Of a DNA stretch of 64,000 nt, positions 8,343 through 56,599 are shown piece by piece. The notes beneath the pieces were generated by a model, which was not told where the DNA came from, searched no databases, and saw only the letters and a list, made by a program, of their open reading frames with translations. The stretch lies in NCBI GenBank assembly GCA_037043015.1, contig CM073324.1, positions 22,770,097 to 22,834,096 on the forward strand, written 5' to 3'. The stretch is from Bryum argenteum. Its lineage: Eukaryota > Streptophyta > Bryopsida > Bryales > Bryaceae. The position numbers and the translations under genes are program-made. Positions within the stretch are counted from its first letter, which is position 1; each line of letters opens with the position of its first letter.

Positions 8343-8346
8343 TTAA

Positions 8347-30237: not shown

Positions 30238-31470
30238 CACTAATAGAAAATGGCGAAAGTGACATTCGTAGCAGCTTGTCCCTTGTGACAAAAGAGTGTT
30301 TGTTTAACCCCTAAAAATCCAGGGGTTTCCTCGACCTCCAGAACCAAAAACTGCCATTTTTCACCTTTGTTGGGAAATGGGGAAATGGAGAAACTTTTTT
30401 TTCCGGTTTTAGACTTTGAACCGTAAGATCTTGTACCTAACTTGTATAAAAAGGACAAGTCAAAATTTCAACCGTTGGATGTTTGTCATTTGTGAGATCA
30501 TAACAATCAAAGTTTGACCAACACTTTTTTTTGCCGCTGCGTGAGAGGCATTGTCTAAATAGTGCCAAGGGCAACTTGATGATTGTTATCCCAAATATTT
30601 TTCCCTCATTTTTTTTCATGTAGGTAATCAAGTTGGGTATGCTCATGCAAAATTTTAGAGACCAATTCCACTTTTGACCTTAATGTAAAATATTTTATGA
30701 AAGAAGGTCTAAAAACAACCATATAGAAAAACAAGCACCACGTATGATATATTTAGTTTGAGAAAAATCTCGACGGTGAGAAGGTGCATTTATGATAATG
30801 TGAATTTCGAAAAAAAAATCTTGGAAAAAATCCAAAATCTCGAATTTTGGCAATTTTTGAAAGAAAAAATTGTAAAATTACTAGAAATTGTGAAGATTGT
30901 TTTTGAAAGTTTTGGAGGCTGCCCTTGTAAAATTGGTAAACTTTTTGACTTTGGATACTTTGGAATTTGAATAGTAATTTGGTAATGAACATATTTCTTA
31001 GAAAAAAAAAATTAAAAAAAATTATTTTAAAGTGCCCGTTTTGGACTTGAAACCTAAAATTTCTAGATGAAGGTTATAAAATTAAAATCTGACTTTGAAA
31101 ATTTTACCACATACACATTACTGTATGGGGAGCACCCAATAAAAATCTTAAGCAAAAATATCAATTTAAATGCTTAAAATGAGCTGCCCGAAATCTCAGA
31201 AAACCGAATCAGTTTTCCTGGATTTTTAGGGGTTAAATTGTGTTTTTAATGACACAAGAATTATTAGTTATACATGTCATATTTTCTTAGAACTATGCCA
31301 ACCTGGTAAGCTATAGAATAGACTCTTACACCAAAAAAAAAAACCTAAAAAGAAGTGACAAATATAACTATTTATTAACATGAGTTTAGAAGCACAATTG
31401 AACATGCTCTATCGCATCACTAGGAACAAGCCATTACCAACTACACTTTCAGTGCAATTTTCTACTAGTG
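30238..31470. mobile_element. CACTA (En/Spm-type) non-autonomous element, 1233 bp
   Basis: Left end CACTAATAGAAAATGGC, right end CAATTTTCTACTAGTG, an inverted pair starting with CACTA. Both are flanked by the 3-bp duplication TTA (30235-30237 and 31471-31473), as expected for this superfamily. No transposase. A separate TTAA-flanked element sits inside it. Confidence 0.85.
30308..31232. mobile_element. TTAA-flanked piggyBac-like element, 925 bp
   Basis: The left end CCCCTAAAAATCCAGG and right end CCTGGATTTTTAGGGG are exact inverses over 16 bp. Both sides carry TTAA (30304-30307 and 31233-31236). The interior has AACCGTAAGATCTTG near 30420 and is related to 43105-43648 and 52680-52960. No transposase frame. 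It is nested in the CACTA element. Confidence 0.8.
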
Positions 31471-31473
31471 TTA

Positions 31474-32054
31474 ATACACTTCATGCTGCATAAGCGTGAA
31501 TATTTTAGTTCACTTTCTATGAAATATACGACCTTGACATCTGAAAGTTTTAAGAATAATACAATAAGGTAGGACGCTCTAAACCGTAGTGCACTTGACG
31601 AAAACCCACACGTTGGGGGCATCCAAGCATAAGGTACATTATAGCTTTCAACTTCATACTTTGATGTACCCATAATATAAAATTTAGAATGTGTGGTACA
31701 TCTAGAACTTCCACTTCCATAATTCTTAACTTATTTATTGTAAATCCAAAATTTATGATTCAGATTTGTCCAATCACCTACATACTTTGAACAATTTCCA
31801 ATATTGATCCCCTTTGACACTTCCCAATGAGCTTGCCAACCTAAATTCATGTGGATATAGGAGCATTATCCCTTACAAAACAACACAATTTAGGGACATT
31901 TCAAAAGGGTCCAACAAGGAGGTAACTCTCACATAGACAAATCTCATCCATCTAAAACCGGATGAAATCTGTCCACAGACAATCAACAAGGGCAGAGAAT
32001 GAAAGCTCAGCTTGACGACGCAATTGATGCTCTCGTTGCTTGTCTATCGTGGCT
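31474..32054. other. Upstream region of the PhyH-like gene
   Basis: AT-rich, no gene. It should hold the promoter of the gene starting at 32055; no convincing TATA box was identified. A short stretch TCATCCATCTAAAACCGGAT lies at about 31946-31965. Confidence 0.3.
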
Positions 32055-34140
32055 ATGGCGGAGACGGAAGAATCCAAACGCCAAGGCGATCGCTACATTC
32101 TCTCCGATGAGGACATTTCGAAGTACAAGAATGATGGATACGTGCATCTTAAGGTAAAAAATTACTAATCCAATCCCCGCACACTTCTCTTGATCAATTG
32201 AACTCCATCATTTTAATCGCCGTCCTTTACATCGCTGCCACCAATTCTAGCTCAATGCCGACTCCTTTGGACATACCATGGAATCGAGCAGCTTTCATAT
32301 TGAAAATTGAGCATCTCTGGTTCGTTGATTACGATAGAGATTGTTGGCGGGCAGGGTTCGGTATTGAATTGGAATCGGGATATTAGCCTCGGCACTAATT
32401 TCCACTCATCTGTAGCTCCTTGCTGACTCTTTTCTCATTATAAAATTGGATTGTATGGAATCGAGCAGCTTCCATTATCGTGAATTGAGCATGACTGGTT
32501 CGATAGAGATTGTTGATCGATAATGGAATTGGCACCTTTGGACTCGGGATTTCACCGATTTCTAGCTCCTTGCTGACTCTTTTCATTTTAAAATTGGATT
32601 GTATGGCATCGAGCAGCTTCCAGTAGTGTAATTAGATCATGTCTGGTTCGTCGATTACGATGGAGATTGTTTGGCGGGAAGGCCTTGATAATGGAATTGG
32701 CACCCTTGGACTCGGAATTTCGTTTCAACATCAAAGTCCACCGATTTCTAGCTCCTTGCTGACTCTTTTCATCGTAGAATTGGATAGTATGGAATCGATG
32801 CATTATCGTATCTAGAGCTTGTCTGGTTTGTTGTGATTGTTTGATGGCTGTTTTGCTCTTTTGGTGGGTATGGAATTGGATTTGGAGTTTTGAATTGAGG
32901 AGGCTATAATGTGGTCGGATTTCTAGTTGGTCATGTGATTCATAATAAGGTGCATTGTGTGCATCTTCTCGCACTTGTTAGGGCTGAATGTTTATTTGAT
33001 GTAATTAAGAGTCATCTTCAAGAGGGAAACGGCGGTCATTTCTCTCTATATTACGATCTGTTCAGTGTTATGTGCTCTTTTCTGAGCTTCGGGTGGCTGC
33101 AGGGAGTGATCTCGGAGGAGGAGATGCAAGGGCTGGAACAAGAATTCATGGCGTTCGTGAGACGAGAAGTGCATGTTGAGGGTCGTGATTTCTGCGACAT
33201 GTCGGGGGACTATACTAAGCCTATCGAGAGCTTCTCTATCATCAACATCATGCTCCCATCCAAGTAAAATTAGGCCTCTTCTCTCTATGTTCCACTGGTT
33301 TCAGTCTCTTGCAAGTCCCCGGGCCCTCCATTAATTAATGAATGGAGAATGAGGTTAAGTTGCATTCTCTATTTATCAAAGGGCTATTAGGGTATACACT
33401 ATAGTCCACTTTGTAATAACATGAGTATCGTTGTAGGTATAATCCCGGCCTTAAAGGGAACATATACGAGAAACGAGCCGCGTCTATCACCGAACAGTTG
33501 CTGGGCTCCGACATGGTGCTAGACTATGATCAATTACTTGCCAAGCCACCAAACAAACCAGATGCAGAATTCAAATGGTAAGATCCTTCTCTCTGTAGTC
33601 AAAGATGAGTCAACGGTGTCTGTTTCGGTAGAATGCACCATGCTCCATGACTTTAAGTGCAGACAGTGGCTTACACTATTTGCTGACTAAATGAGTGTTG
33701 GATCGTTCGAGTGTTGTAGGCATCAAGACTTGGCGTACTGGCCCGTCACGAAGGACACAAGAACAGCGTCCTTCTGGCTAGCAATCGACAACTCCCGATT
33801 GGAAAACGGATGCGTGCAATTTGTTGCAGGCTCACACCTAGAGAAGCACTTGAGGCATCACGGGCCACTACATGGTGACAGGGACAAGTCACACACATTG
33901 GCAGCGACATTGTCCGAGGATGACAAGCCCAAGGCGGCCGAGATCGACAGAGGCGATGTGACGGTGCACCATGAGCGCATTCTGCACGGCTCAGGTGGAA
34001 ACTTCTCGTCCAGCAGCTGGCGGAGAGCGTGGGTGGTGGCATTTCGGTCCCAGGAGACTGTGGCCATGGAGCGGGAGATGGGCTTCACGCACTCCCATAA
34101 TGACAACCTCAAGGTGCTGAATGAAGTGGGAAAGGAATGA
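32055..34140 (+). CDS. Phytanoyl-CoA dioxygenase (PhyH) family protein, 4 exons, 273 aa
   Basis: Fe(II)/2-oxoglutarate-dependent hydroxylase of the PhyH family. Exons 32055-32153, 33103-33263, 33437-33577 and 33720-34140 join in frame with GT-AG sites and total 822 nt. The metal-binding facial triad is visible: H135 and D137 in WHQDLAYWP and H223 in ERILHGSGGN. An Arg at 235/236 (SSWRRAWVV) is placed to bind 2-oxoglutarate. The N-terminus (SDEDISKYKNDGYVHLK) is the usual helix of the fold. Length fits small plant PhyH proteins. The true substrate is unknown; plant members include a peroxisomal phytanoyl-CoA hydroxylase, but no clear C-terminal peroxisome signal is seen (ends EVGKE). Intron 1 (949 bp) is unusually long and repetitive. 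Apparently intact. Confidence 0.9.
32230..32880 (+). repeat. Imperfect tandem repeat in intron 1 of the PhyH gene
   Basis: About four units of 150-190 bp share TAGCTCCTTGCTGACTCTTT, AAAATTGGATTGTATGG, ATCGAGCAGCTTCC and GGTTCG...GATTG. Units start near 32245, 32410, 32565 and 32750. The first is the most diverged. Confidence 0.65.
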
Positions 34141-35569
34141 ATCCCTTGCCTAGAACGTGTACATAATACCTCCGGTACGTTTCTGCCAAACCTCCGACCT
34201 CCGATCACCCTGAGCAGTGTTCATCGTCCATCCGATGCTTTCATTCTAGATGTGGTGGATCTGAAACTTCTGTTATAAAATGGAAGCATCTTGGGAACCT
34301 GATTTTAGAGTACTTGAACTAGGAAGGTACTTGACGAATGTGATGGTTGCAAGTTTTCTCTTAAGAAATTGATACATGTGTTTCTGGTAAGAAAATGCAC
34401 AACTGTGGTTGTTGTATCATCATTCTACTTTTGCTATCATGACCAGTGTTCGCTTGTCTTGTTTTATGAGGGGCAACAAATACTCCATCTCAGATGTGAT
34501 CATATCATTAATCATGCCATGAAAAGTTGGTATCATCGCATCCAAGATTGTGGGCAGCAATGATTGATTTTGGCAATCTTTCTCTGGGATTCGTTTAATT
34601 TTAGTTGGGCCTCGTGGTGCTACCACGGGAGTAAAATCATTGGTTCTAAGAAAGGAAATAATACGTTGCTTGGAAAGGTGTTTTCTACCGATTTATTTCG
34701 GTCTGTATACTGTAGTGCCTGTAACCCATCTTTCTTGGGGTAAAGTCAATTTTATTATAACACTTAGAGTACCACCATCACCACGCTTTTACTTGAATGC
34801 TCCATGTACAGTACACACCACAAATGATGGCTACTGTACTACCACAGAATCAAGTCTCACAGAAGCAACTTCCTATGAAGACTCTCCATGGTTGGTATTA
34901 GTGACACTTTCCTTTTTGAAATAATTGTCTGTGTACAAAAGTACAAGGAACATATGGTAGTTGCTTCGACTTCTTGAAAGTGTTTTTTAAAAAGGTGTGT
35001 TGAAAAAGACAGCTCTCTTCTGATAGTGTCAGAACAGGACCCTTATGGCCTACTAGCCAATAACCACTATGTTAAGTCAATACTACAATCATGCACTTGT
35101 GTACATTTTTAATAGAATCAAGTATATTTTGGTGTTGGACCATGTACTTACAATCTAGCATGAAACATTCAATGGATTGCAGTGTTAGCTGTTATTAATA
35201 ATTTTTAAATCCACCTTTTTTTTCAAAGAATTGCTTCTAAATCTTCATTACAAGGTGTTGCATTCTAAGTAAGGTACTGGTGGAAAGCGTGACTTGATGT
35301 TGGAAAATCCACTATGCATCTGAATGCTTCGCAACAAAAATATACATGGTACACCTAATGCTCAGAAAGACTCTAATTTAAAGCTTTCGGAAGTGATCAA
35401 AATACACTTACTGAACACAGCAACTCAAATTTCTTTACACCTCATCAAGCCATCACATCTTGAACAATTATCAGATAACTTTCATGAACCAGATGCATAT
35501 TGAAAATAATAGTCACAAGAATGTATGCAAAAATGAAGCGACCTATAAAGGTCTCTGGGAATCTAACAG
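34141..35569. other. Intergenic between PhyH-like and tRNA-binding genes
   Basis: Holds the 3' ends of two convergent genes. AT-rich with no further coding that I can support; short frames on both strands look random. Confidence 0.4.
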
Positions 35570-37520
35570 TTAATGTATACCAGCTCCATCAGGCAATCCA
35601 GGCACTTTAATTGAACCCGAGGATGTAACCAGTGGCTTGCTATCGAACACAGCTAAGCCCCCTGCACCAATCAAGGCACCACATATTAACATTTTTAGTG
35701 CTGGTAAAGCTCCAGTATGACAATCATGAAAAAACAAAGCAACGAGGTCATTGGATTCAATGGTCAACTACGAAATGAGAACATACCTTCAACTTTGAGA
35801 AGAGGCACGATCTTCTCCCAGATTTTTGAGCTTAGCTGCTTAACTGGACTGGCGCTTGGAGACCCACCCTGCAAAGAATGATATAAATGAACATCAGTCG
35901 TGAGTGTATCTGTGTGATGGAACGTGATTACATTGGCCTTGTATCAAGATATGGAGGCTCACCTCTTGAAAGACACGGTCTCCTGGAACAGCATCTGAAG
36001 GAGGCTCAAGTACCTACACAACAATTAACAAGCCATGAAACAGGATTATTTCCATTTTATTAAGTATGAATTGGCTTCATGTGTTACGAATAGGTCATGT
36101 AGGAGTTTATGTTTGTTCCAAAGAATATCGAATTCTAATCAGCATAGACAACGTTTGATCAACTGTCTTCATTCAACAAATTAAAGTAGAAGAAGCCTAC
36201 CTTGACAATCTCACTTCCTTCCGGAGTAGCCACTGACCCCGCCAGAATCATCGCTTCACTAACTTCTCCTGCAAGCTTGGCAGTCTTCAAATTCAGGATG
36301 ACGCAAACTAATTTGCCCTGTAGCTCTTCCACCGTCACAAATTTCTTCAAACCTGCAACAACCTGCAGACGATGGATCTTCAGCAAACGGGACGAGTCCA
36401 TGTCGGTAGAGACCGTGCACATGAACATGTTACACAAAACAAAAAGCAGCGAACTCAGCACCTGTTTGATAGTGCCGCCACCCACGTCTATTTTACACAC
36501 GTACAACTTCTCGGAGTTCGGATGATTTTCCACAGATTGCACTACGGCCACCTGATCTCCCACAACTCACGGAGTCAATAAATAAATAGGATGACAAACA
36601 ACCACAATGACGATTTCAATGACGATTGCAAGGACTTGATACTCTAAGGACAAAGCTTGAGGTTGCAACCAAACTTCTGATTTGTCACAAGCTTTGGTAT
36701 GTCACAAGCAGATGTATACAATTACATCAAATCAAGAAAATGTTCACCATAATTCCATGTTAAGATTAAGGATGTACATCCCAAACACATTTGTTAAAAG
36801 TGTAGGTTTCCAATTGGCTTCAATTACGTTCCAAAACAAGTTCATTGAAAGTGTAAGTTTCCAATTATGTTTCAGACCAACAAAAGATAATGTCCAGGTT
36901 CACGAAAATCACAAATTGATCTAGAAATTACCACTTTTAAGATTATGTGATCCAAATTCCAGTAACAATACCTGCATGAGAGCTTTGTCGAAATTGTCGT
37001 TCTGCTCATTTCCACTTGCAACTGGTGCGTTAGTTGCAGCTTTAGCTCCCGGAAGCTTCACTGGCATACACAAATCAAAACGTTCAAAATCTTCACAAAT
37101 TCGAGGCTTTAAGGCAATATTGTAGGCCACTTTGAATTTATATGAAATGGAACCAGAACATGAGTTCAAGAACTATGAGTATGAAAAAAATCAGAGGCTT
37201 ACAATTGCGTCCCTTGAGGATGTCCGGAATGGGCTTCTCCTCCCTCTTCTTCGGCTTGACGTCCACAACTTCTTCCTGAAAAGATGAGGAGGTAACTAAC
37301 TTAGCATTCAAAATTCAAATAATTTCTCGCGGGCGGGAAAATATATCGAATTCTAAACCCTTACCGCGCTCTGAATGGGATCACCAGAGATTACTGCGGG
37401 CTTGGTGACTGCCGGCACGGGTGCAGCGGGAGCTGCGGCAGGCTCGGAATTCGTGAGACGGGCAAGGATGGAATCCAAGTGCGCAATGGCATCGTCGATG
37501 GCGCTTACGGATTGTGCCAT
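35570..37520 (-). CDS. tRNA-binding (EMAP-II/Arc1p-type OB-fold) protein, 8 exons, 264 aa
   Basis: Stand-alone tRNA-binding protein related to the C-terminal domain of AIMP1/EMAP-II, yeast Arc1p and plant methionyl-tRNA synthetase. It is expected to bind tRNA and assist aminoacylation. Exons (minus): 37520-37365, 37275-37203, 37060-36972, 36551-36462, 36362-36201, 36013-35963, 35868-35787, 35661-35570. They total 795 nt and stay in frame. A short N-terminal helix (DDAIAHLDSILARL) and a Pro/Ala linker are followed by a Lys-rich patch (VKPKKREEKPIPDILKGRN). The OB fold begins near residue 98, with SVENHPNSEKLYVCKIDVG, VVAGLKKFV, LVCVILNLKTAKLAGEVSEA and MILAG as core strands. PSDAVPGDRVF and KVPGLP are also family features. 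The 420-bp intron 3 interrupts the first OB strand. Appears intact. Confidence 0.9.
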
Positions 37521-37828
37521 CTCTCTCCCCACGGACTGAGGCCTAATCAGGCTTCACAATATGTGTGAGAAAACAAATTACCTCTACGATGCTAACAAAC
37601 TGCCACGGAAGCGAAATCGTATGGAGAATTGGTGCGATGATCCGTGCTGGAGAGAGGAAGGTGACGCAGTCGAGGGCTCACAGGGTTTAGGGTATAGGGG
37701 ATTATCATCCGTTTGATGATTTTGATGATAAAAATATTGATGAAGGAGCTCATCCAGGTTGGAGTTCACCTCATCGACCAGATTGTCACAAAGTTTGCTC
37801 TAAGCTTACTACCAAGCCTTGTGTTTAA

Positions 37829-38190
37829 CCCTTAAACGCCCATGGGGTCTTCAACGGGCAGTCCAAAATTGAATCACAGCATCTTTTGGACTTGGGCATC
37901 ATGAATAGTGCACTTTTTGAACTTGGGCACCATGAATGAACCAATCAATGATGAGCTTGCAACCTCCCACAAGGTTATGTACAACCCCAACCTACCTACC
38001 ACGATCCTTTCAAACCATAAAACCATCCATACAAATTGTGATTTGAATTGTAAAATTTCACTTTTTGATTGCATCATAAGACGGTGACCACTTTGACATC
38101 AAAATATAAGTGAAAAGTTGATTACAGTAAGAGCTACAAAGAAGATTCAGTTGGAATCAAGCCCCTCGGGCTTGCTTGGGCGTTTAAGGG
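37829..38190. mobile_element. TTAA-flanked piggyBac-like MITE, 362 bp (copy A)
   Basis: Flanked by TTAA at 37825-37828 and 38191-38194. Ends CCCTTAAACGCCCA and TTGGGCGTTTAAGGG are inverted over 13-14 bp. It is the same length as, and highly similar to, 55833-56194. It lies about 300 bp upstream of the tRNA-binding gene start; no coding capacity. Confidence 0.85.
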
Positions 38191-38194
38191 TTAA

Positions 38195-38760
38195 CCCTTA
38201 ACAAGGCCGATTGTCGAAAATCAACATTATGGATGATTGCAACAACTTTGAAGAGCCATAACTTCTTTGATCCAGAGTCGGATTTGGATGAAAGCAGTTG
38301 GGTTGCGTCCCACATTAATTATACTAGTGTATGTAGTAAAAATTGCATACTTGTAAAATGAAGTATGAATAAATCGCATGCATATTAGTGAAGGCACCTC
38401 CTCTTTTTGGGTTTTCAAACATGGAGCATGTTTTGCCATTGGGAGGCAACTATGGGAATTAAAAATGTTATCATGGATTCCTTTTACATAATCATGCTCT
38501 TAAGATGATGGGTAATAACTTTCTAGTACAAAGATTTTTGATATAAATATTTTTGGTATTGGATTTGCAATGATGTTTCTATCTTGAAAGAAAGTGAATA
38601 AATGAATGACTTTGGTACGCTATATCTACTTCAGCCACTATTGGATTTTAACTTTGTTTTTTGGGATGAATTAGTGGTAGAAACCTTAACAACATTGAAG
38701 GTAGATTGAAGATTTAAGTGCAAAGGGTTATGTTTTGGACTATTTTACCTTTAACACCTG
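38195..38760. mobile_element. TTAA-type element abutting copy A, right end undefined
   Basis: Begins CCCTTAACAAGGCC immediately after the TTAA that closes copy A (38191-38194), so the two share one TTAA. The interior resembles 1-600 of this window (AGAGCCATAACTTCTTTGATC, CATGGAGCATGTTTTGCCATTG). No right terminal repeat was found; the right border is where similarity fades. Confidence 0.5.
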
Positions 38761-39654
38761 CTTCATTAGAAGTGCACGTGGCATTTGAAAAGTGCACATG
38801 TCAATATTTTTGCAATTGGATTATAAAATTAGGAGGCAATTTGGGGCCAATTTTTTTGGAAAATAACATTCATAATTAATGTCTGCTTCAGAAAATCTTC
38901 GTATTCAATATCAACATGGTATAGGTTGTAAGAGAAAGAATTCAATTCATGACATTTGATATTGTATTGAAATTAGTACGAAGGTATGAAAATTCTCTCT
39001 AAACTAATTAAATTGCAATACAACATGATGCAATGATATCATATAAATTTCTAAGTTTTCATTAAAGCTAAATGACTTTGAAGATGAAGGTTCAAATGCC
39101 AATTCATGTTAATACTCCCCATGTATTGCCATTCTATTGACTCAAAATGCATATACATATATAGCTTCTCGCCATCAAGCATCTTCAACTCCTTCTCTGT
39201 TCTTATGCAACTAACACTTGCAAGATTTCTAGACCTTCCTGGAGTCCTACACATGTGCACCTCCATCTAAAATGCTCTTCACACAAACTACTTCATCTAT
39301 AGTTTGTTTTCAACGACCTACAACAATACTTCCAACTCTCGTCGTGGACCACACCGCGAGCAACCTATGTGCATGCCATCAATGTTAAATAGAGAAACAA
39401 GTTTTGAATTCTCAAATTCAGATCATGTTCTGAACGATGCAGATCCTTCATTCCTTCTCCACTTCGCCTAGGGCCACCATCCAAAGATAAACTACTATGT
39501 AAAGCCCCATTCATATCTACATAAAACAAAATGAATTTCAAACAAGTAAGGGGTTAAGTATATGCCCACCTAAACCATGTGAAGATACAAATATCAAGAT
39601 TCATGTACAAGAAGTAACAAAGAAGGTACAAGAAGTAACAAAGAAGGTACGACT
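38761..39654. other. Intergenic, no recognisable gene
   Basis: AT-rich. No gene or clear element. Short frames (e.g. minus strand 39051-39266) have no protein-like features. Confidence 0.35.
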
Positions 39655-40255
39655 TAGCCGAGAATCCAAGCCCAAGTGACCAAATTCTATAAGAGTGGGC
39701 ACGTGCCTACCCGGCTACCCCTCATGTAACTTACAAATATACAATTATTTAAGGGGTGTGTATTGTATTCACCCCACATTTAGTAATTGTAAAGTAAATG
39801 ATGTAAGTTGGAGAGTTACAAAGTGTGGGGACAACTCAATGAAAGCTCGCAAATACAAGAGAATATTTTTTATAAGGGTGGGCATGTGCCTACTTCTAAT
39901 GTAACATACAAACATACAATTATTGAAGGTGGGCTAGGCACGTGCCTACCTCATATCAAACATATGAACATATGAACATAAAATTTCATGTAAAAGACGT
40001 AATGAGAGATGGTACTACTCCACTTAAAATCCAAATCCAAGTGCCTAAACTTTATCGAGGTTGGCATGTGCCTACCCATCATGTAACTTACAAATATATA
40101 AATATTGAAAGCGGCTTCAATAATTAAAACAGAACTAGTTTTACAGGTAGAAATTACAAAATGGATACAATGTGAGTTTTAGCGTTGTACCCATGTCTCT
40201 TAATTATCCAACAAGATATGATATGAATGTAATTACCTTGCGGGGGTTTTGTATG

Positions 40256-41393
40256 TTATACAGTCGAATCCAATAACTCAGTGACAAATGAGTGGAACTC
40301 ACTCGCTATCTCGCAGAAGACAGTCGTCGACCGAGGTCCCATTAAAACTGCAAAACTGTCCTTGCTCCAACCATGACAGCACATCAACGTCAATGGAGCT
40401 GGCCATTCTTCGAAGGAGGATATGCTCTCGAAATCGGAAGGTGGAGTACTCACTATGTCGGAAAGCGTGGCCGAGAAGGTAGGTCGTTTTGAACCACGAT
40501 CTCATTCGTCGGAGATGTGCATACTGTTCCTGGATAGTTGTGACTGCATTGCCGCGGCATCTGCACAGTATTTGTAGCGGCAGAAGTGGTGGCCTCCTGA
40601 AACCAGGCTTTGGGGTTGGGATCAGCCCTCGTCCGATTCACAGTTGATATCGACAACAGGAGATCGTCGGAAACCCCAAAGGTGCTCGCGACGATGACTC
40701 GGCCATAGTTCAGAATCTGCAGAGTCATTTCGACGAAGTTCAGCAAGTTTCGCCTGCCGTAGTAATGAAACACTGCATCTGCACCGAGGGCAGCTTCGAG
40801 TTGAGTCTTGAACGCACAGAAGTCGACTTTGCTCCAGGAACTTGATGGCTTCCACGTCAAGATGAACTAGGTTTTGCGGTCCTTGCGGTCGCGGACTCCC
40901 CTGTACTCCCTCACCTGCCTTTCTTACTGAACTAGCGCCGAAGGCACTTGCTGGGACGGGTTGATTCGTCGTCGTTTCGAACTTCGATAGGTTGTTAAAG
41001 ATCCACGAAATCGATCTGGAGTTGCCAGAGCCGGGGGCTTCTCTCCCATGGTGTAATTTGCCCCCTCCATTTGCCGTGATTTGTCCCCTCAATTTTCAAT
41101 TCCAAGAATGGCCAGCTACGGTTACGTTTTGGTGCGTTAGGGAACATTGGAGGTATCGCGGAATCGCGCATTGAGAGGTCATTGTCCCAAATGGAGATTA
41201 TGAACCAGCGAATGCAGTAGCGATGGTGTCTCCGCCTGTTGTTTAAGATGCTTGAACACTTCTTGCTCGTCCAGATCTCCCCTAATCGGCCTGCCACTGG
41301 AGTGCCTCATGCCTTGCAGACTTCAGGCGCTCCTCTTGGAGGAGCTGGTTAATGGTGGTGGCGGCCTGTTTGCGGAGAAGGTCGGCAAGCATA
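40256..41393 (-). pseudogene. Decayed coding-like region, family uncertain
   Basis: GC content and open frames rise here. The minus-strand frame 40860-40453 includes FKTQLEAALGADAVFHYYG then LQILNYGRVIVAS, which loosely recalls the cofactor-binding part of NADP-dependent alkenal reductases, but downstream the match stops. A second frame near 41393-41280 encodes a helical stretch (LLRKQAATTINQLLQEERL). Several stops and no consistent exon structure suggest a relic; identity is not established. Confidence 0.2.
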
Positions 41394-43030: not shown

Positions 43031-43104
43031 CGCGCTTCAACAAAACAAAAAACAAAAAAAAATTAAAAAATTTAAAAGAAAATAAAAAAATAAATGAATA
43101 AAAA

Positions 43105-43648
43105 AATATTTGGGTGCTCAAAACCCCAAAACTGCGATTTTTCTACCTCTATGCACTCCCGGGGGTGTAAACCAAAAATTCCCGCCTTCAAAAACTTCCA
43201 ACCGTAAGATCTTGAACCTAAGAATATTTTTAGTTAATGTTCCAAAAATAGACCATTGGATGTTTACCATTTGAGAGATCATGACATTCAAAGTTTGTCT
43301 CCCAAGTTTTTTGGGCATTTTGAAGATTGTTCATGGAATTTTTGAAGGCTACCCTTGTAAAACTGGTAAACGTTTTGACTTGTCACTTTGGAATTCAAGT
43401 AGTGATTTGTTTATGACAATATTTTCAGACAAAGACTAAATTTAAACTGCCCTTTTAGGTCTTCAAACTTAAAATTTCTCGATGAAGGTTTTAAAATTGG
43501 AATTTGGCTTTGCAATTTTTACCACATACTTTTTGGAGTATAAGGAACACCCAATAAAAATTTAGGCAAAAAATATTACTTTAAACACCTTCATCTAAGC
43601 TACCCGAAGTTTCAAAAACCGGTTTCAGATTTCAAGGACGGTTAGGGG
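43105..43648. mobile_element. TTAA-type element related to 30308-31232, left end lost
   Basis: The right end GGACGGTTAGGGG is followed by TTAA (43649-43652). The interior follows the 30308-31232 element (CCAACCGTAAGATCTTGAAC, GGCTACCCTTGTAAAACTGG). The left terminal repeat is not recognisable. Confidence 0.55.
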
Positions 43649-43652
43649 TTAA

Positions 43653-43911
43653 CCCCTAACTCTCCTTGAAGCCCGAAACGGGTTTCGGAGGTTCCCGCAA
43701 GAGAAAACTCAGCCAACTTTGACCATTATAATCTCACAAATGAGGAAGAATGAACGGTTCAAATTTGGTATGTGAGATGAATGTCAAGTGAACTTCGAGA
43801 TCTTACGGTTGAATCTTTCAAATAATGCTTAGATTGAGATTTCTTGAGCTGAATCTAAAGGAAGGTCAAATTTTGTGACTTAGACCGTTTTGCAACAAGG
43901 AGAATTAGGGG
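43653..43911. mobile_element. TTAA-flanked piggyBac-like MITE, 259 bp
   Basis: Left end CCCCTAACTCTCCTTG, right end CAAGGAGAATTAGGGG (inverse with one difference). TTAA at 43649-43652 (shared with the neighbouring element) and 43912-43915. The interior carries CGAGATCTTACGGTTGA, the family motif in reverse. Confidence 0.8.
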
Positions 43912-44332
43912 TTAAAAGGTAACCCAAAGAGCTTTACACATGGGGAATTGACCCCAATATATTGATTGTCTAATGTGGACTCCGAGCGGCCCACTGAGCC
44001 AATTGTTTTGAAAAAATGAGTGAATGAACATGGGAAATTGGTTGCCCTCAACTCCTCATGTTATGCGTCCCTGTAGTAGGGATTTTGCCCTAGTCTAAAC
44101 TACTTTCAGTATAGTATGGTTCAACGGTAGAAAAGCAAAATAGTCTGTCGTATTGTGACTAAGGTCACATGTATTCGCGGTATAAGTGTAACTATGTATA
44201 AACGTACCTGAGGGCTTGTCTTGCGGCGATTCACTCTTATACCCAGGGATCACTCAATTTGGGTTACTGTCATTACCAATGCACTATATCTAGACTCAAT
44301 GCAGTCTCAGTCTTGTCTAGTATTCTAAGGGA

Positions 44333-46792: not shown

Positions 46793-48130
46793 TCATGATA
46801 AAAAGTGCTGAAGGCACCTTACAACATCTTCCACAAAATAGACATCAAATCCTACACCAGTTGCGCTAGAACACCCAACAATCCTCTTGGGAGATGTTGG
46901 TATTAATCTCGTGAGATTTACACCTTCGCCGATCTTCCCATATGGTCCATATTTTCTTTTGGTGGTGATGAAGCTAATCGCGGTTCTACTGTTTAAGAAA
47001 CCTGTTGTATGTACATTCTTTGGAAGTTCCACTTGGACAAGATACTCACTTGGATAATCAAACATAATCTGTATTGGCACCCGTGAAAATGTCAAATAAA
47101 CAAAATAATGTATAATGACTAGCATGTTATATTATTAAATATTGACCACAAGAACCACAAACAAGTTGTGAGGAACCATCTTCGTAAGATGATAGTGCAC
47201 CACAATTACATGCAAATATGTTTGAATTACATCCTAAGAAATATTCATAAACATCAAGAAAAATTCACACAAGTAAATGCTGTACCTAAGTGGCACCTAT
47301 GTAAAGTGACACTTTACCATTTCCTTTTTTGCGATTATAAACTAGCAAATTTATCATAATTCTCTTGTAAGGCACAATATTAATTACTACCTTACTATGA
47401 TAGCATATTTGAAGGATAAATGTGCATGCTATTAAAGCTTGAAAGAAATGCTTACCCAGTCACTGGTGAAATTGCCGAAGTAATTTCAAAACGGTACATA
47501 TTGTGTAGACCATTGTCCTTCTGAAGTATAACCCACTGTAAATCCAACCACCTTTTCCATTAAGAAGTCCCTAAATTGGACGCTTATACCCCTGATGTCC
47601 AATAGCGATGGAAGGGAAAAGGCAGGTCCTCCGCTAACAGCCCCGGTGCCCTCCCTCTACAAAATCTCAAGATTATCATCATAAATAACATATTGTGGGC
47701 GTATACATGATGAATATGTATTACTCCTTGTGCCTTTGGAAAGAAACCATGAGTTGCTAGAAATGGTTGAATTTATTTTCATAGTAGGGATTACTCAAAG
47801 ATACGATTTGAAATGGTTTGGATGGTTCCGATTCCTCATTAATATCAAATCTTGGTTTTCATGTGAGACAAGGGTTCTAATGCATGAAATCAATCCAAGG
47901 AAATACTTGTATACAAAAGTATCACAATAAGTGTGTTCATCTTTTAATCATGCGCACTGTCTTAAAAATTCCAAATAATAATAGTCCAATGTGTGTGCTC
48001 GACACTCACCTCCATCAATAGGGGTATTCTCCCAAATGGCCATGTCGCATCTATTGGATACAGACTTGGATTCTCTGCAGTCAATCCATTAGTGAATTGG
48101 ATTAATGCTACAAAGATTCCTCGTATGATA
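46793..48130 (-). pseudogene. Jacalin-like lectin exons, probably a broken gene
   Basis: Three minus-strand segments read as carbohydrate-binding jacalin-fold pieces. About 48130-48010 (ALIQFTNGL, WPFGRIP) ends at a GTGAGT donor. About 47655-47456 (EGTGAVSGGPAFSLPS, EKVVGFTVGYTSEGQW, then NFTSDW) ends at GTAAGC. 47068-46793 (FDYPSEYLVQVE, FITTKRKYGPYGK, KRIVGCSSATG) runs to its stop. Phases agree between the last two. Typical jacalin signatures are F-x-TN...YGPFG, FSLP, KIVGF and DYPSEYL. The middle exon has an in-frame TGA just before NYFGNF, and the first domain lacks its N-terminal Gly-rich loop. It lies just downstream of, and on the same strand as, a kinase gene. Confidence 0.5.
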
Positions 48131-48205
48131 AACAAACAAATACGTCAGTATTTTGTCAAAAAGAAATTTCAAACATGTCGAGAATGACTATATTCTAACT
48201 CCAAC

Positions 48206-49894
48206 TCATCTCGTACCAAGCAAAGTTTGTACGCCATTGAGATATCTTAGCACTTTACACACATCTGCAAATGCGGGTCGCTCTCGTGGATCCGCATGCC
48301 AACACGCACATATTAGAGAAGACAAGGATGTGGGACAAGTCGGAGGTAGTCGTGGTCGTAGAGGAATTTGACCCGTCAACTTTGAGTACAACGAACTCAT
48401 CGCTACATCACTGTAAGGTTCCTCCCCTGTGAGAATCTCCGAGCAAATCACCCCAAAGCTGTAAACATCTGCTTTCATCAAATATGCATGCTCGAGATGC
48501 GCATCATCTTTGTTGGCTCCAAATATCTCTGGTGCCATGTATCTTCTTGTACCCATATTGTGTGTAAGGTGCGAGTACCTCGTTATTTCATGCTTCAATT
48601 TGGCCAAACCAAAATCAGCCACTTTTGCAAACACAAAACCATCCTCAAGATCTACACTGACCGTGCTCACTAGGTTCACAAGTATGTTTGAGGACTTGAG
48701 GTCCCGATGGGCCATTCCTTGAGTGTGCAAGTACCTCACTGCATCTGCAATTTAGAGCATCAAGTCTACTGCTGCTCGAAGAGAGAATGGTTGATCTCTT
48801 GTCCCTCCTCGCATTCGGGCTTTGATGAACTTGTATAGATCCGTGGACATCAAATCCAAGAGGAGTGAGTTCTCGGAGCAAGCATGCACTTTGACAATGT
48901 GAGGGTGATTGAGTTTTGCTAATGCCTCCGCCTCATCTCGTAAGAAAGTAAGCCCAGCAGAATCGAAACCAAAAAACTTCTGGGCATAATCAACTCCCAA
49001 CCACGTGCATTTTGTAACGGCACCAAAGGCTCCTGAGCCCAATGGCCGACCATGTGTCAGAACTTCTTCATCGAAGCTAAAGAGCTTAGAAAGGTCGTTA
49101 GAGTCATCACTGCTGGAGCCCTGTCTGGACCGCCATTCTTCGATGAGCTGTACTGCAAGACAAAAGCGGCGATCACTACGCCCATGCATATTGCCACACT
49201 CTCCACCACTACATTCATGATCTCCATCCAAATTCTCAAGTTGTTCCATCACATCCCACCAGTCTTCATGCTCTGCTATCTCTAGCAGTTCTTGTTCATA
49301 TTCCCCAATTCTAGCTTCCCATGGGAACTCTTTGAGTTTTGAGGATGATTTGTCCGCTGTGAATTTACAAATACGCGCATTGGACACCACAGATAGGGAC
49401 CACTGGAGCTCCTTCAAAATGTCGGTAAATTCTTGGGAAATACTGGCATGCTTGATAGCTGCGGACAAAGGGGAAATCGGCTTACAACACACCTCACTAA
49501 GAAGCCTCGCGCGTGTCAGCACCCTTTGCAGCTCCCGCGTCAGTTGTGACGGTGAAGGATGGTTGGGACGCTTTACTGTACAATCGCTCCAGTATGATAA
49601 AGGAAGTTGATTCCAAGGACCCCAAGTTTGAAGTCTATACCGAATAAAGCTTCCGAGAACCTCATGCTGTGCTCTGCAATATTTGACCTCCATCTCGCGT
49701 GAATGAACCTACACAACGATCGATCTGCACAAAAACCAGACGGGTGTGTAAGTAGGTCTCCCAGTACGACAGGGATTCTGGTCGACTCTTCCCCTATTCA
49801 AAAATCCCTCGTAACACGTGGACACTAGATAGTAGCCAGACAAGAATGACGTCAAATGAAATAAGTAGAGAAAGTAGCTTACCACATCGATCAT
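48206..49894 (-). pseudogene. DUF1221-like plus kinase-domain gene with one in-frame stop
   Basis: Plant protein kinase with an N-terminal helical region (YCRAQHEVLGSFIRYRLQTW, LTRELQRVLTRARLLSEVCC) resembling DUF1221/HeLo-type kinases, and a C-terminal Ser/Thr-Tyr-like kinase domain. Counting from the ATG at 49693: glycine loop GSGAFG (219-224), Lys 239 in YAQKFF, then LNHPHIV, HRDLKSSN (about 329-336), DFGLAK (about 360), MAPEIFG and DVYSFGVICSEILTGEEPY. All catalytic motifs are present. Codon 314 is TAA (48754-48752), where the family normally has Gln (LMLQIA...YLH), so a single C-to-T change splits a 495-codon frame. A short first exon (49894-49883) spliced to 49708 would add nine residues (MIDVVHSRE) in frame. 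Pseudogene, mutant allele or sequencing error cannot be told apart here. The N-terminal family name is from memory. Confidence 0.75.
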
Positions 49895-51094
49895 GCAATG
49901 GTTACCACTGCTAGTCTCCTCTACCGACAAGAGCAGGAGCGCGCATCATATGCTCCTTCTGCAGAGAGAACTACTGAGAGAGAGTTAGAGTCAAGAGAGC
50001 ATTGACAAAAAGTATGTGGGATCCCACTCAAGCAAGCTCCCGATCTTGAACTCTTTTCCGGGCGTCTCTTGCTGACAGGCAGGTCCTTCTCTGCCAGAGA
50101 CAGGAGACAGTCGTGAGGAAAGGAGAGGATCTGGCCTTTACCCTAGACTTATACGGAGTAGCAAACAATCATCCGGTGGATGGTGCACAGTGACACGGTC
50201 ACTACAGTAACACTGTAACACGTCTATGCAACTGCCCGGTGTCTTCCGGTGCTCTCCCATGATTCTCGACTTCCTGGAACCCCGAATCGTTTTGTCTGCA
50301 GTTGCATACCACGCAAGCGATTCCCACTTTTGCTCAGTCTTCTCAAGCAGAATAAAAAACAACTAAGATACTTACAAGACATACTCAATCTTGAAGCTTC
50401 GAAGTTCGACCATGGAGATCAGTGGAAATGAACCCTTAGAATGTCACGCAAAGCCAATTCTGTTTTAGGATTTTTGTAGCCCCTGAGGGCACTGACCCAA
50501 ATATGCTTACTCCTGATACCTCATGAGTAAGTGCCAATAGAGGGTCGATATATATTGACATTTATGTAACTTGGCATTTTTATTGACCGGCTTTTACATT
50601 CATTTTCATGGGTTTTGTCGAAGCTTTTCTAGATATGAACTCGGTCCTCTTTTGAGACCGGCGTGAATAGAGTGTTTATTTGTTCCTCTTGATAATGAGT
50701 ATGTGTCTACCAGATAAAGGAACATTAGTACAAGACTACTCACCCCTTTCGGGAATAAACACTTTAGTAGCTTTAGACAAGGGAGCTTTTCGATATAAGT
50801 ATGTGACAAAGTCTGCCCTCGGTTGGTAGGCAGAGTATATTAAAGAAAAGCCTTTGTTTTGTCCCTAGAATCTTGAAAAGAAATTATATTTATTTTGCTC
50901 GGGAAGATGACATAGTCTTTAGTTTGATCGTCTAGATTTGAAATTTGATTTAGCATTTCCAAAAGTACTTCATTGAAACTTTATAATAATGTAGGTTTTT
51001 ATGTGTAGGACTTAATGATTAGTTTCCCTATGTATGTGTTATAGAACCTCAAATTTCACACCCATCATGGTTCTACGTTATTTTCAATCTAAAA
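49895..51094. other. Upstream of the kinase gene; weak repeats
   Basis: The kinase promoter should lie here. 50640-50770 is distantly similar to 51110-51250 (both contain ...GCATGAATA/GCGTGAATAGAGTGT... and ...ACTACT(C/A)ACCC...). No gene is recognised. Confidence 0.35.
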
Positions 51095-51099
51095 CTCAT

Positions 51100-51905
51100 A
51101 AGAAGAAGAACACCAGACCCCTATGGGTTGGCATGAATATAGTGTCTGTTCGACCTACCCTTGATGATATGCCCACAAGACATAACAACAGTGGTATAGG
51201 ACTACTAACCCTTCTTAGGATGGACACTGTATCTAAAACACAACTTGAATGTGTGATAATCAGAAATAAAGATAAGATATCAGGACTTCAATTGTAAAAT
51301 CTTGTAATAAACTCTAAATTAAATTTGAAGTCACGAGGCTCTTAGATTGCAAAGATGTATTTGTACTAATAAATAATTATAATATTCCACCATTTTCACT
51401 TTGAAAATAGAAATATTATCAACCAAAAAACTATAACAAAAATATCACCGGTTAGAAAAATTATTTGGATGAAAGATGTTGGAATTCATCTTGAGTTCAT
51501 ATTCATGTATAAAAACAAATCATTAAAAAAATTATTTTGACTTCACATAATTTGCTCGCAATGGGAAAACATGCACCATGTGGCTACAAGCCCAAATATA
51601 GAAGTTGCTTCCGCTAAAGGGCATGCCATAAATTTATATTGAAGATAATAATTTGTATGTTACCAGTGTATAGAATTTAAAAGGATTTTACATCTTAGTT
51701 CTCGTTCTTGCATTGCATATATGATAATATAATGTGCTAATGTGTGTACATTGGTTGGCAATGGCATGATATGGGTACCACTAAGACGCTTCTTAATATG
51801 TGTGACCTATGTGTATGTCATGTGGGCATATCATCAAGGGTAGGTCGAACGGACACTTTAATCACGCCAACCCTCATGGGTCTGGTGTTGTTCTTCTTCT
51901 TCTGT
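51100..51905. repeat. Foldback element with arms of about 90 bp
   Basis: AAGAAGAAGAACACCAGACC, GGGTTGGCATGAATATAGTG and TTCGACCTACCCTTGATGAT on the left (about 51101-51180) recur reversed at 51812-51903 (ATCATCAAGGGTAGGTCGAA, GGGTCTGGTGTTGTTCTTCT). Roughly 0.8 kb in total; no target duplication defined, no coding. Confidence 0.6.
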
Positions 51906-52536
51906 GACCTATGTGTAATTCATTATATTTGTGCCAGAAATTCCTTTTAGAAAAGGAAACCCCATGTATACAACTATAGCCATGTCACCTATAATACCAT
52001 CTAGTTCAAATAATTTTTCAGTATTTTTTTTATCAAAAAACTGGTTTCAAAAAAATCACACTATTTTTGGAGGGGGTATCCATATTATGCTTTTACCAGT
52101 GTGTTTTTGTTTGGACAATTTTAGAGACAATAAAAACCATATTCCATTATCCAAGACAATGTCTTGTTCACGTGAAAGTTTTAGGTGGTTATCGTGAAGA
52201 TAAAGCAACTTGCTTGAAATCCACACAACATCAAAAATCAGCCTCTATGTACAATTATCCATAGAGGGCTCAAGAATAAACCCCAAGAATTCTCTGAATG
52301 GATGAGTTTTATGTATTTGTGCTAAACATTGCTAGTGTTTGGTTTAGTTGCACTCTATGTGCGGGAAGGGGCCGATCTAAGAACTTTAACTCTTTTATTT
52401 TTATGAATTTTACTACATGCTCAAATATGATAGTTTTTATTGGATCACTCTGCTTATTACTTTGCTCATCTATAATAATTTTCTCCAATTTGAGATATGT
52501 GGGGTTATTGTGCAAGTGACCTTATCCAATTCAAAA

Positions 52537-52618
52537 ATGAAGTCTTTGTCGTCAGCTTTATCACCTAATAAGCAAAAATATGGACCATATGGCAAAGTCT
52601 TTCCGGCAAAACATTGTT
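52537..52618 (+). pseudogene. Jacalin-like fragment
   Basis: A short frame reads SSALSPNKQKYGPYGKVF, matching the NK..YGPYGK strand-turn of jacalin domains, as seen at 46793-47068. No other part of the domain is adjacent. Probably a relic. Confidence 0.3.
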
Positions 52619-52817
52619 AAAACCATATTTTGGGAGAATAGTTGGGTTCAATAATCCTACCTCTGGGATTTACGTTACAAGAAATGATCCAGACATCCAA
52701 AGTTTGTGTCTCACGCTTTTTGGAGCATTTTGAAGATTGATTTTGAAGATTTTGGAGGTTGCCCTTGTAAAATTGGTAAACTCTTTGACTTTAGCCACCT
52801 TGGAATTTGAGAAGTGA

Positions 52818-52924
52818 TTTAGTAATGAAGACAGATAGATAAATACGCTGGTCCTTTTTCAAGGGCCACCGTGATTAGAATGTATGTTCGTCGAGCCAGC
52901 AACCTAAAGTTTAGTAATGAACAT
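52818..52924. mobile_element. Short insertion (about 83 bp) between 12-bp direct repeats
   Basis: TTTAGTAATGAA ends at about 52829 and recurs at about 52913-52924. The related copy at 30970-31000 has only one such word and runs straight into CATATTTC, so the intervening sequence is inserted. The insert contains two inverted words (GCTGG...CCAGC and GGTCCTTTTTCAAGGGCC). Nature unknown. Confidence 0.5.
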
Positions 52925-53559
52925 ATTTCCAAAAACTAATTCCCAGAGATGATGTAATGTTTACCATTTTCAGACATTTGTGATAATATCAAGATACAAG
53001 TTGTTAGTATTAATAATATCAAAAACATATGAATGTGCATAGTATTTTGCAATCTAATATAAAATTTCTAGCATCCATGAGGTTCATGAATTTTAAGTTG
53101 TGTATATATTGACTTGCATGGTATTACTTGTGAACTCTCAAAACAATGGAATTTAATGAAAAATATACTCTTGCTATTACAAAATGTCTCATTGATTTGC
53201 CTAAGGTACAAATACAACATTTTATCAATTGGGTCTCATAATAATACTACTATACACAATTGGTATATACTCATTACCTCATTACAATACCACTATACTT
53301 CTTTTATTTCTATGCTCATCACTCACAATTTAAAAAAGAAAAAATGAAGTGTCGATGCCATCGAGCAATTATCACTATATAAACAACTCATTAATAATAT
53401 TAAAAACAAGTAAAGTCATCGTCATATCAAACATGGCAGCTTTTTATTTGGTGTTTTCCAAAAATTATCTCATGTTTCTCGTGCCCTCGTTTCCGGTTCC
53501 CCTCCTTTGCCTTACTCTCTTGTTGATGGTTTTTCATCCTCCATTCCCTTGTTATTTCA

Positions 53560-53830
53560 TTCTCTCGTTCTGGATTCCCCGTCCCCAACTCCAGCCCCCA
53601 TTCTTAGTTTCCTATTCCCCGCCCCATGTCCTTTATTCCCTCGTTTTGGATTCCATGTCCCCCAACTCCGGCTCCCATTCTTTGTTTCCTATTCCCTGTC
53701 TCATGTCCCTAATTCCGTCGTTCTCGATTCCCTATCCCCCAACTCCGGCTCTCATCTTTTTTTCCCAATTCCCCCTCGCATGTGCCTAATTCTCTTGTTC
53801 TCCACTTCCATCCTCATGTTCCTTTATTTC
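53560..53830 (+). repeat. Minisatellite, period about 76 bp, 3-4 units
   Basis: The words GATTCCC(C/A), CCCCAACTCC(A/G)GC, TTTCCTATTCCC and CATGTCC recur with spacing of 75-77 bp (GATTCC at 53574, 53649, 53726). Pyrimidine-rich; frames through it are open because the period is close to a multiple of three, not because it encodes a protein. Confidence 0.75.
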
Positions 53831-54218
53831 CCGTTCACCATTTCATTTTCTTCACTATGGTATTTTTCCATTCTCTCAATCGTTTATTCACTTGCTTTTT
53901 TTTCCCCTTGCCTCCTTGCCATGTTAATGAGATCTAATCAACTCTAAGCAACAATCGCTCACCAAAACTCTTTAAACCCGTGAAAACTCTTCAGGCCATG
54001 CATGTATGTCCATGGAACTATCACATGGGATTGTCGTACGGACAGACAGACAAACAATAATTTTTTTATAAATAACCTCAATTCTATTAAAATGGCGGTA
54101 TTCTTTGTGCCATCTTGCCGAATCCCCTATGAGCCATTTTGCTTGCATTCTAAAATGTGTCATTTTATAAGTATATTATTGAACTGAAGTTCGGAATGCA
54201 AAATGGCATGTTTATTAA

Positions 54219-54647
54219 CCCCTAAACGCCCAAGGGGGGGTAAAGCTCCTAACAGTTGGTAATAATGTTGATTTTTTTCAAAACTGCGTAAAAACAAAAA
54301 AAAGATGGAAAATGGAAAATTCAACCGTAGGATCTTCTTTGGAGCATGGCAATTAATATGGCTGCCAAGTTGCATGCCATTTGGAGGTATGGATTTCAAG
54401 ATCCATCCAAAAAAGGGGTGAAGATCACACCACCAAAACTTTCATGAAAAATCTCTTTCGCCCACTCTCACAAATTGTGGATCAAGGTTTTTACTATTTA
54501 TCCAAGGAGGGAGTAGAGTAAACCCACCGAGGAGTTGAGCAAAAAAAACGGCGGATGAAAAATCGATGGGATGAAAGCGGGGTTGTGCACCAAAGACGGA
54601 GCCTCACATCCAGAATGTCGAAAAATGACATTGTGGGCGCTTAAGGG
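54219..54647. mobile_element. TTAA-flanked piggyBac-like MITE, 429 bp
   Basis: The left end CCCCTAAACGCCCAAGG follows TTAA (54215-54218). The right end TGTGGGCGCTTAAGGG precedes TTAA (54648-54651). The ends are imperfect inverses. The interior has CAACCGTAGGATCTTC near 54322. Its right subterminal part matches the first bases of the window. Confidence 0.8.
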
Positions 54648-54651
54648 TTAA

Positions 54652-55828
54652 TATCACACAAGTTCTCCGTAATATAACTTATTTCTGTAATATCACCAAA
54701 ATTTTCATAATATCACACATTTTTTATGGTTCTTGACCTTTGGACATAGTCAAGGGCAATATTTCTGAACGGCCGTTCAAAAACATTGATGTTTTTGAAA
54801 TGCGGTTTAGAAATATTTACCCTATCATGTCAAAACTCGACTAAAACCAACTTTAGAATTTTCATTTTGAGCACCCCGAAAAGTGCCATTTTATCGGAAT
54901 AACGTCATTTTAACGGAATAGAGGTTGAATGTTTAGATTTAACTTTGTATCTCATGGCGTTGCATGTCGGTGAGAACGACATCTTTTATTGCTTCAGAAA
55001 CTTTTTTCATCCAGATCACTTCTCATTGAAATCAATTGAGTCTTGGACAGAGGATTTCTAGTCAATCAAGTTTTGCTCAATCTTTTGCACGCCTACATGA
55101 CATGAAAAGTGAAGCAAGCATTGTAAAACTATATACCATTGCGAAGCTCTCATTGAGAGCTTTTCATCCATCTAAACAAATGCCCTTGAATATCTATATT
55201 CACCTTAATCCCAAGATATTTGTGGTATCAATGAAACATTTTGGGACTTAGGATGTATCAAACTCCAAATACAAATTATAAGAAGTATATTTGATAATAA
55301 TTTTCAAAGTCACAATATCTTTGATAATAATTTTCAAAGTCACAAATTAGACATTAATTAGAGTTATCCGTAAAGATAACAAATTGTTTGAGAACTCAAG
55401 ACTATTTTTTGGGAATTTCTTGTGTACCATAAGTTGGAGTGTAAACGTAAAAACAAAAAATTTGAGCCCTAGAATTATGCAAACTAGAGCAATCATGACA
55501 ACCACACTATTGGATTCCTTAGTTATAGAGCTCCAAAAGTAGGTAGAATAAAATACATGAAGTGAAAGCAGATAACACCCTAAAGTTACAAATATTATTG
55601 CTCTAAGCATTGGTGAAGCCTAAGAAAATGCAAAAAAATTAAGTAAGTGATATGTAATTAAGAACATCTTATACTTTACGTAAACATTTAATATATAAAT
55701 AAGAATAGACATTTAAAATTCCTTAGAAATTCCATGAACCCAAATATAAATAGTTTTTCATTTTGATTTAAGGTCATAGTATCTTACCGGAACAACATGC
55801 ATTTAACCATTATTTACATAGCTGCTTT
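54652..55828. other. Intergenic, no recognisable gene
   Basis: AT-rich. A direct repeat TTTGATAATAATTTTCAAAG then TCACAA occurs at about 55288 and 55319. No gene is supported. Confidence 0.35.
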
Positions 55829-55832
55829 TTAA

Positions 55833-56194
55833 CCCTTAAACGCCCATGGGGTCTAAAACGGGCAGTCCAAAATCGGATCACAACATCTTTTGGACTTGGG
55901 CATCATGGATAGTGCACTTTTTGGACTTGGGCACCATGAATGAACCAATCAATGATGAGCTTGCAACCTCCTACAAGGTTATGTACAACCCCAACCTACC
56001 TACCACAATCCTTTCAAACCGTAAAATCATACATACAAATTGTGATTTGAATTGTAAAATTTCACTTTTTGAATGCATCATAAGACGGTGACCAGTTTGA
56101 CATCAAAATATAAGTGAAAAGTTGATTACAGTGAGAGCTACAGAGAAGATTATGTTGGAATCAAGCCCCTCGGGCTTGCTTGGGCGTTTAAGGG
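55833..56194. mobile_element. TTAA-flanked piggyBac-like MITE, 362 bp (copy B)
   Basis: TTAA at 55829-55832 and 56195-56198. Ends CCCTTAAACGCCCA and TTGGGCGTTTAAGGG. Same length as copy A (37829-38190) and very similar throughout, which suggests relatively recent activity of this subfamily. Confidence 0.85.
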
Positions 56195-56599
56195 TTAACC
56201 ATGTGAGAATAAGTGGAAAGAGAATAATTTATCCATACCTACTATTCTTTTTAATGTACATCATTTGGGGCATCCTCTGCCTTATCCGAGCTTCTTCCAC
56301 CTTTTTCTCACCTTTTCTTCCCTTGATTTTCTAGACACTTACTCAAATACAATAATACAAATCGAGTTTATTTGTTTTCTTTTCTTAGGATAGTTTAGAA
56401 TTAGAAATTTAAGCTTAACTACACCTTGTTTTTGAAAACCAAAGGTAGAAACTTAAGTTTGCTACTTTTTTAAGGATACCTCTGTAAGAAACTTATGATA
56501 CTAATCTAATTTGAGGCATGAAGACGTATTCAAAATTTGAAAGTACGAGAATATTCTCGTACTCTGGCAGCATGATTTTGAGCCTTAAAAGACAAAGAT

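Follow-up and report, generated by a model that had tools for sequence, protein, structure and literature searches.

What moves the short, TTAA-flanked elements of a moss genome? The window analysed here, a 64,000-nucleotide stretch of Bryum argenteum (C4:22770097-22834096, in a genome of 258.8 Mb in 25 contigs, 258.36 Mb of it on eleven large ones), holds ten such elements, five with both ends and five with one, and exact ends beside TTAA were found at all ten, where an initial annotation made from the letters alone had placed them. The two-ended elements, all given on the plus strand, are miniature inverted-repeat transposable elements (MITEs), which we assign below to the piggyBac superfamily. 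They comprise a 925-bp element at 30308-31232 (30304..31236 with TTAA on both sides), two 362-bp elements at 37829-38190 and 55833-56194 (37825..38194 and 55829..56198), a 259-bp element at 43653-43911 (43649..43915) and a 429-bp element at 54219-54647 (54215..54651). From the tip inwards, their terminal inverted repeats are free of mismatches for 16 bp at 30308-31232, 14 bp in both 362-bp copies, 7 bp at 43653-43911 and 3 bp at 54219-54647; the last two resume past a mismatch, 15 of the first 16 and 12 of the first 14 bases, respectively, being identical. None of the five overlaps an open reading frame (ORF) of at least 130 aa. In the window there are 15 exact occurrences of the motif TTAACCCYTAA and one with a single mismatch; in 100 shuffled versions, searched with the same tolerance, it averaged 2.76 occurrences with a maximum of 12, and none reached 16.

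The one-ended elements include relatives of these families. At 7975-8342 (7975..8346) lies an element akin to the 362-bp family but diverged from it (68% over 300 bp); it has retained its right end and TTAA and lost its left end. The element at 43105-43648 (43105..43652), related to the 925-bp family at 77% over 155 bp, has the right end only. The element at 38195-38760 (38191..38760) has the left end only and shares stretches with the one at 1-1020 (1..1024), inside which the window starts and whose right end lies at 1014-1020, followed by TTAA. The element at 18783-19044 (18779..19044) has a left TTAA with a CCCCTAAAGG tip, and a right tip TTTAGGG without TTAA. Two of the one-ended elements directly adjoin two-ended ones across a single, common TTAA, the 38195-38760 element meeting a 362-bp copy at 38191-38194 and the 43105-43648 element meeting the 259-bp element at 43649-43652. 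Two further inverted repeats involve these elements. The stretches 407-656 and 1186-1435 are complementary at 82%, and an inverted relative seems to come after the 1-1020 element; a 571-bp inverted repeat (17453-18023 and 19162-19732, 99% complementary) encloses a 1138-bp spacer that includes the 18783-19044 element.

Both principal families are abundant in the genome. Of 2670 candidates for the 362-bp family 40 were scored, the best 40 rows being 95-100% identical over 359-362 bp; of 4028 for the 925-bp family 40 were scored, at 93-100%. TTAA stands on either side of 35 of the 38 fetched copies of the two families, the 38 taking in the two from the window itself. Three copies differ: L015 has ATAA on both sides, L020 has TCAA on the right, and in L038 a change of the last G to T moved the boundary by one. 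Beyond the TTAA, no base is strongly preferred at the first three positions; the sixth and seventh favour A (31 and 36 of 72). Exact ends of type TTAACCCYTAAANGNCC number 9939 genome-wide, with one in the reversed control, and those of type TTAACCCCTAAAAATCC 1555, with none in the control. CCY-initial ends adjoining TTAA, as is typical of piggyBac, are thus found in the window, in the fetched copies and in the genome-wide end patterns. Two ends stand back to back over one TTAA at 407 sites (control 0), of which the window contributes two (38184-38201 and 43642-43659).

As TTAA is its own reverse complement, canonical sites cannot separate target duplications of 2, 3 and 4 bp, whereas non-TTAA sites can. 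Ends reading [ACG]TAA make up 32 of the 1587 ends counted (2.0%; 19 ATAA, 12 CTAA and 1 GTAA). For these, L015 and 31 others, a far end was identified in 15 cases, nine by pattern match and five read by eye, and was absent at the expected distance in 17. Twelve of the 15 far ends repeat the tetramer of the near end directly, three read TTAA and none has the tetramer inverted. A scan for TTATCCCC ends yielded 19, eight of which pair with ATAA ends, seven of them already counted and one, at 2.67 kb, new and judged from coordinates only; the remaining 11 lack an exact ATAA partner. Overall, ATAA or CTAA is directly duplicated in 13 of 16 identified cases and inverted in none. Besides L015, the 11 duplications with far ends read have the element in one orientation in eight cases and in the other in three. 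Since duplications occur in both orientations, copying includes the first base as well as the fourth: the target duplication is 4 bp, revealed at the non-TTAA sites by sequence alone.

This result bears on two other superfamilies. Were the elements Tourist-like MITEs of the PIF/Harbinger type, with a 3-bp duplication of TTA or TAA and a terminal A or T belonging to the element, the canonical TTAA sites and the empty sites, taken alone, would look as they do, and Harbinger MITEs are common among plants (PMC10004981, in the portion consulted). However, ATAA and CTAA duplications with the element either way round have both outer bases copied, no 3-bp duplication was found among the sites read, and the full-length partners described below encode PF13843 alone, leaving this explanation a negligible probability. 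Stowaway-like MITEs of the Tc1/mariner type would duplicate TA. The middle TA is indeed retained at every non-TTAA site found with the search patterns, which themselves demand it, and Tc1-like elements are known from moss, according to the part of PMC4054914 at hand. A TA duplication, however, predicts a right TTAA wherever the left reads ATAA, and instead the outer base was copied in 13 of 16 cases; no 2-bp duplication emerged from these sites, and a mariner origin is just as hard to credit. Thus, a 4-bp duplication at TTAA, as in piggyBac, excludes both the TA and the TTA/TAA models.

Empty sites agree with this picture. Searches with the joined flanks of L025 and of L038 returned 40 and 41 matches, respectively, their own flanks counted, and 20 paralogous places (ten per site, 80-90% identical) were fetched. 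All 20 have one gapless tetramer where the element would stand, which reads TTAA in two (L112 and L119). As empty sites with the canonical TTAA cannot separate the 2-, 3- and 4-bp models, we take them as support only. The joined flanks of the 30308 element match another repeat at only 68-72% with gaps, too weakly for use, and those of L031 have a single 75% match, which lies inside its own locus.

Which enzyme, then, acts on these ends? The initial annotation had suggested looking for a PGBD-like transposase whose element shares these ends, and such genes are indeed present. A genome search with the PF13843 (DDE_Tnp_1_7) profile gave 116 scored places out of 775 candidates, the best with an E-value of 7e-82, and no match in any of 14 control genomes. 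In 93 of the 116, the matching stretch is free of internal stops. Sixteen of 30 fetched loci entered an alignment in which D181, D260 and D373 are invariant (16 of 16) and D376 nearly so; their assignment as catalytic aspartates was made by alignment to the solved piggyBac and not through the residue numbers of the T. ni protein. One C-terminal cysteine is invariant and four more are conserved in at least 90%, marking a cysteine-rich domain, much of which is missing from L065 and L041. Compared with the sequences of solved structures, protein P0001 matches piggyBac (6x67 and 6x68, E 2e-29) and piggyBat (9c0f, E 8e-24) and no other at E 0.001, and DDE_Tnp_1_7 is the sole Pfam domain of P0001 and P0002. 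The predicted model of P0003, an environmental relative with 64% identity rather than the moss protein itself, has a mean pLDDT of 72.5, and its top fold matches are 6x67 and 9c0f, followed by Tn5.

N-terminal to the core, L040, L054, L060, P0003 and P0004 have in common a segment around GTVVxEFYDP and VPEAVV, of which a weaker trace is seen in L046, L047, L053 and L067. It lies at about 200-360 in P0001 and 30-120 in P0003, where the model places strands at low-to-medium confidence. Because of this confidence, and because a Pfam scan of P0001-P0004 returned no match in the N-terminal segment, we claim no function for it.

The transposase genes reside in full-length elements of 4.5-5.4 kb whose tips, CCCTTAAACG or CCCCTAAA, adjoin TTAA. 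Four of seven loci extended on the 5' side have both exact ends at TTAA: L039 (4950 bp, both TTAA counted), L040 (5199 bp), L048 (5412 bp) and L054 (4469 bp). The match between L039 and L040 begins exactly at the TTAA and runs for 4534 bp at 97.75% identity; another, 97% over 202 bp, ends at the TTAA, while their immediate flanks differ and a 300-bp match of 70% appears farther upstream. Five of seven clade-2 loci (L057, L049, L050, L068 and L058) have the exact 3' end TTAACCCCTAA, and L058, at 4940 bp, has both ends. All partners examined encode PF13843 and no other type of transposase; thus a DDE_Tnp_1_7 enzyme with its catalytic aspartates is found in elements with the same ends as the MITEs, and neither of the outcomes named beforehand as contrary to a piggyBac assignment, a 3-bp duplication or a partner with a different transposase, came to light.

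Short, non-coding, high-copy and bounded by inverted ends, the 362-bp and 925-bp families have autonomous relatives as well, and are in this sense true MITEs. The 362-bp MITE resembles the ends of clade-1 transposase elements, with 34 bp of its right end matching their 5' end at 91% and 22 bp of its left end matching their 3' end at 95%. The 925-bp element resembles clade 2 instead: it is 71-77% identical to clade-2 3' subterminal DNA at equal distance from the TTAA (over 42-372 in L050 and 104-374 or less in the other clade-2 loci), and over its last 140 bp it aligns with the 5' end of L058 (68%, E 4e-6). The 259-bp element, in part of its interior, and the 43105-43648 element are also similar to clade-2 3' DNA. 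These pairings bear on the proposal of the initial annotation that one TTAA-specific transposase moves or moved every element in the window. The outermost tips, TTAA-CCC(C/T)TAA, are alike between families, as a single enzyme would lead one to expect; yet the 362-bp and 925-bp families fit the subterminal DNA of separate clades, whose transposases share only 36-39% sequence identity, and a single mover is therefore improbable.

Taken together, we regard it as very nearly certain that the window elements are non-autonomous MITEs of the piggyBac superfamily and that their movers are the transposases that partners of about 4.5-5.4 kb encode at other places in the genome. The earlier suggestion that these plant elements are of piggyBac type and target TTAA is hence borne out by transposase genes, matched ends and the 4-bp duplication. 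In the mechanism we propose, the transposase would recognise matched ends, consisting of the CCCTTAAACG or CCCCTAAA tips and subterminal DNA, and the element would be joined into a TTAA, leaving the tetramer on both sides (ATAA, CTAA or GTAA at about 2% of the counted ends). An insertion would thereby leave a TTAA adjoining CCC, and a later element landing on the same TTAA could produce neighbours with one tetramer in common.

Several observations weigh against this interpretation. Three of the 16 identified far sides (L081, L094 and L096) read TTAA, L081 terminating in another family's tip, and 16 of the 32 non-TTAA sites have no identified far end. Eighteen of the 20 empty sites are one or two bases off TTAA, and none of the ten for L038 reads TTAA, nine having TTAC and one TGAC. 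Among the 5'-extended loci, L043 and L057 have one exact end each and L064 none, and L064 and L042 lack the exact clade-2 3' end. The 429-, 566- and 262-bp elements (54219-54647, 38195-38760 and 18783-19044) gave no firm helper match. Finally, excision and activity are what we infer rather than what we observed, which applies to cut-and-paste excision, to the mobilisation of MITEs by clade-matched transposases and to recent activity.

piggyBac is best known from animals, as an insect-derived genetic tool, and is seldom discussed for plants. The moss transposases resemble those of piggyBac from Trichoplusia ni (6x67/6x68) and piggyBat (9c0f) in the PF13843 core, the aligned catalytic aspartates and, in most, the cysteine pattern, and the elements agree with the superfamily in the TTAA target, the 4-bp duplication and the CCY-initial ends. 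They differ in long N-terminal parts without a Pfam match, and the best solved relative (E 2e-29) covers only the core. A close parallel is Pokey of Daphnia with its MITE mPok, which, as far as the consulted text of PMC3849761 goes, has a similar full-length size, MITEs with common ends, non-TTAA duplications (ATAA, TTAT and CTAA) and tandem insertions with a common TTAA (23% of mPok). Unlike the moss elements, Pokey has an animal host, is partly specific to rDNA and has about 12% non-TTAA insertions as against about 2% of ends here (PMC3849761). The latter figure resembles the 2% non-TTAA, mainly CTAA/TTAG and ATAA/TTAT, of Li et al. as quoted in the available part of PMC6651600.

The initial annotation had further considered that the lineage might be undescribed in land plants or horizontally acquired. 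The first part does not hold, as piggyBac is already catalogued there. In the sections at hand, PMC4438587 (Table 2) has PiggyBac among the superfamilies of all groups studied, land plants included, PMC10004981 places it among angiosperm MITE superfamilies, PMC6890710 counts 1230 fern fragments (0.00%), PMC8319324 one in feather grass (0.00%), and PMC10813416 states that piggyBac has been isolated from plants also. As far as these portions go, the entries have the superfamily name in common with the moss elements and are lists or classification counts, without full-length elements with matched ends. One further hit, PMC10619864, was the word 'piggybacking' and not the transposon. A search of the open PMC literature, which takes in neither subscription papers nor preprints, listed no account of moss piggyBac elements. 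The elements of this moss are a large addition to a known superfamily. With its thousands of ends, intact frames, near-identical full-length copies and clade-matched MITEs, the genome offers a natural system for studying the success of the superfamily in one plant lineage, the matching of MITEs to helpers and the possible use of plant-adapted transposases as tools for clean excision.

What can be said of its origin? The tree we computed has 46 proteins, of which 16 are from the moss, 21 are environmental and 9 animal, 30 of the 46 coming from the listed protein matches; long sequences were trimmed to their last 580 residues, and the root is a midpoint. The 16 moss proteins form a 100/98 group with eight unnamed environmental ones, apart from all nine animal sequences used, and the starred branches require at least five changes of the moss label, the fewest being seven. 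A recent horizontal transfer from an animal would suit the fact that the named proteins among the relatives listed are all animal (in one search, 120 of 130 matches being listed) and that some families are homogeneous, such as L039 and L040 at 97.75%. Yet under the midpoint root the moss sequences group with environmental and not with animal proteins, with those five or more label changes, and such a transfer is very unlikely. The coexistence of several old lineages argues against one recent entry, while dating nothing, and the acquisition proposed earlier finds no backing in the transposases tested, none of the nine animal sequences falling inside the clade. It is possible, and we advance this tentatively, that mosses have their own old, diversified piggyBac branch, with several lineages and the N-terminal segment, which in this species is active now or was very recently and has given rise to thousands of TTAA ends. 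If true, this would provide a native land-plant piggyBac system open to direct testing.

The largest scaffold, C1 (44.1 Mb, outside the window), is piggyBac-poor, with 61 of the 1555 TTAACCCCTAAAAATCC-type ends and 5 of the 116 scored transposase matches, against 19.8 expected from its length. Its first 21.4 Mb contain 100 TTAACCCYTAAANGNCC-type ends, compared with 38 per Mb genome-wide. C1 might be a sex chromosome or a heterochromatic one.

The window also contains a BUD13 gene at 57656-59734. Among the 120 listed of 1351 matches, its closest named relatives are from two mosses, at 70% over 60% of the query for Ceratodon purpureus and at 67% over 58% for Physcomitrium patens, with liverworts and vascular plants ranking behind them; this one gene points to a moss as the host. 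Within its frame, tandem 87-bp repeats at 58178-58989 give rise to serine-arginine-proline-rich repeats. Direct repeats at 12252-12658 and 28390-28795, 99-100% identical and about 16.1 kb apart, enclose retroelement-like ORFs, and the pair at 12252-28795 probably represents a young long terminal repeat retrotransposon.

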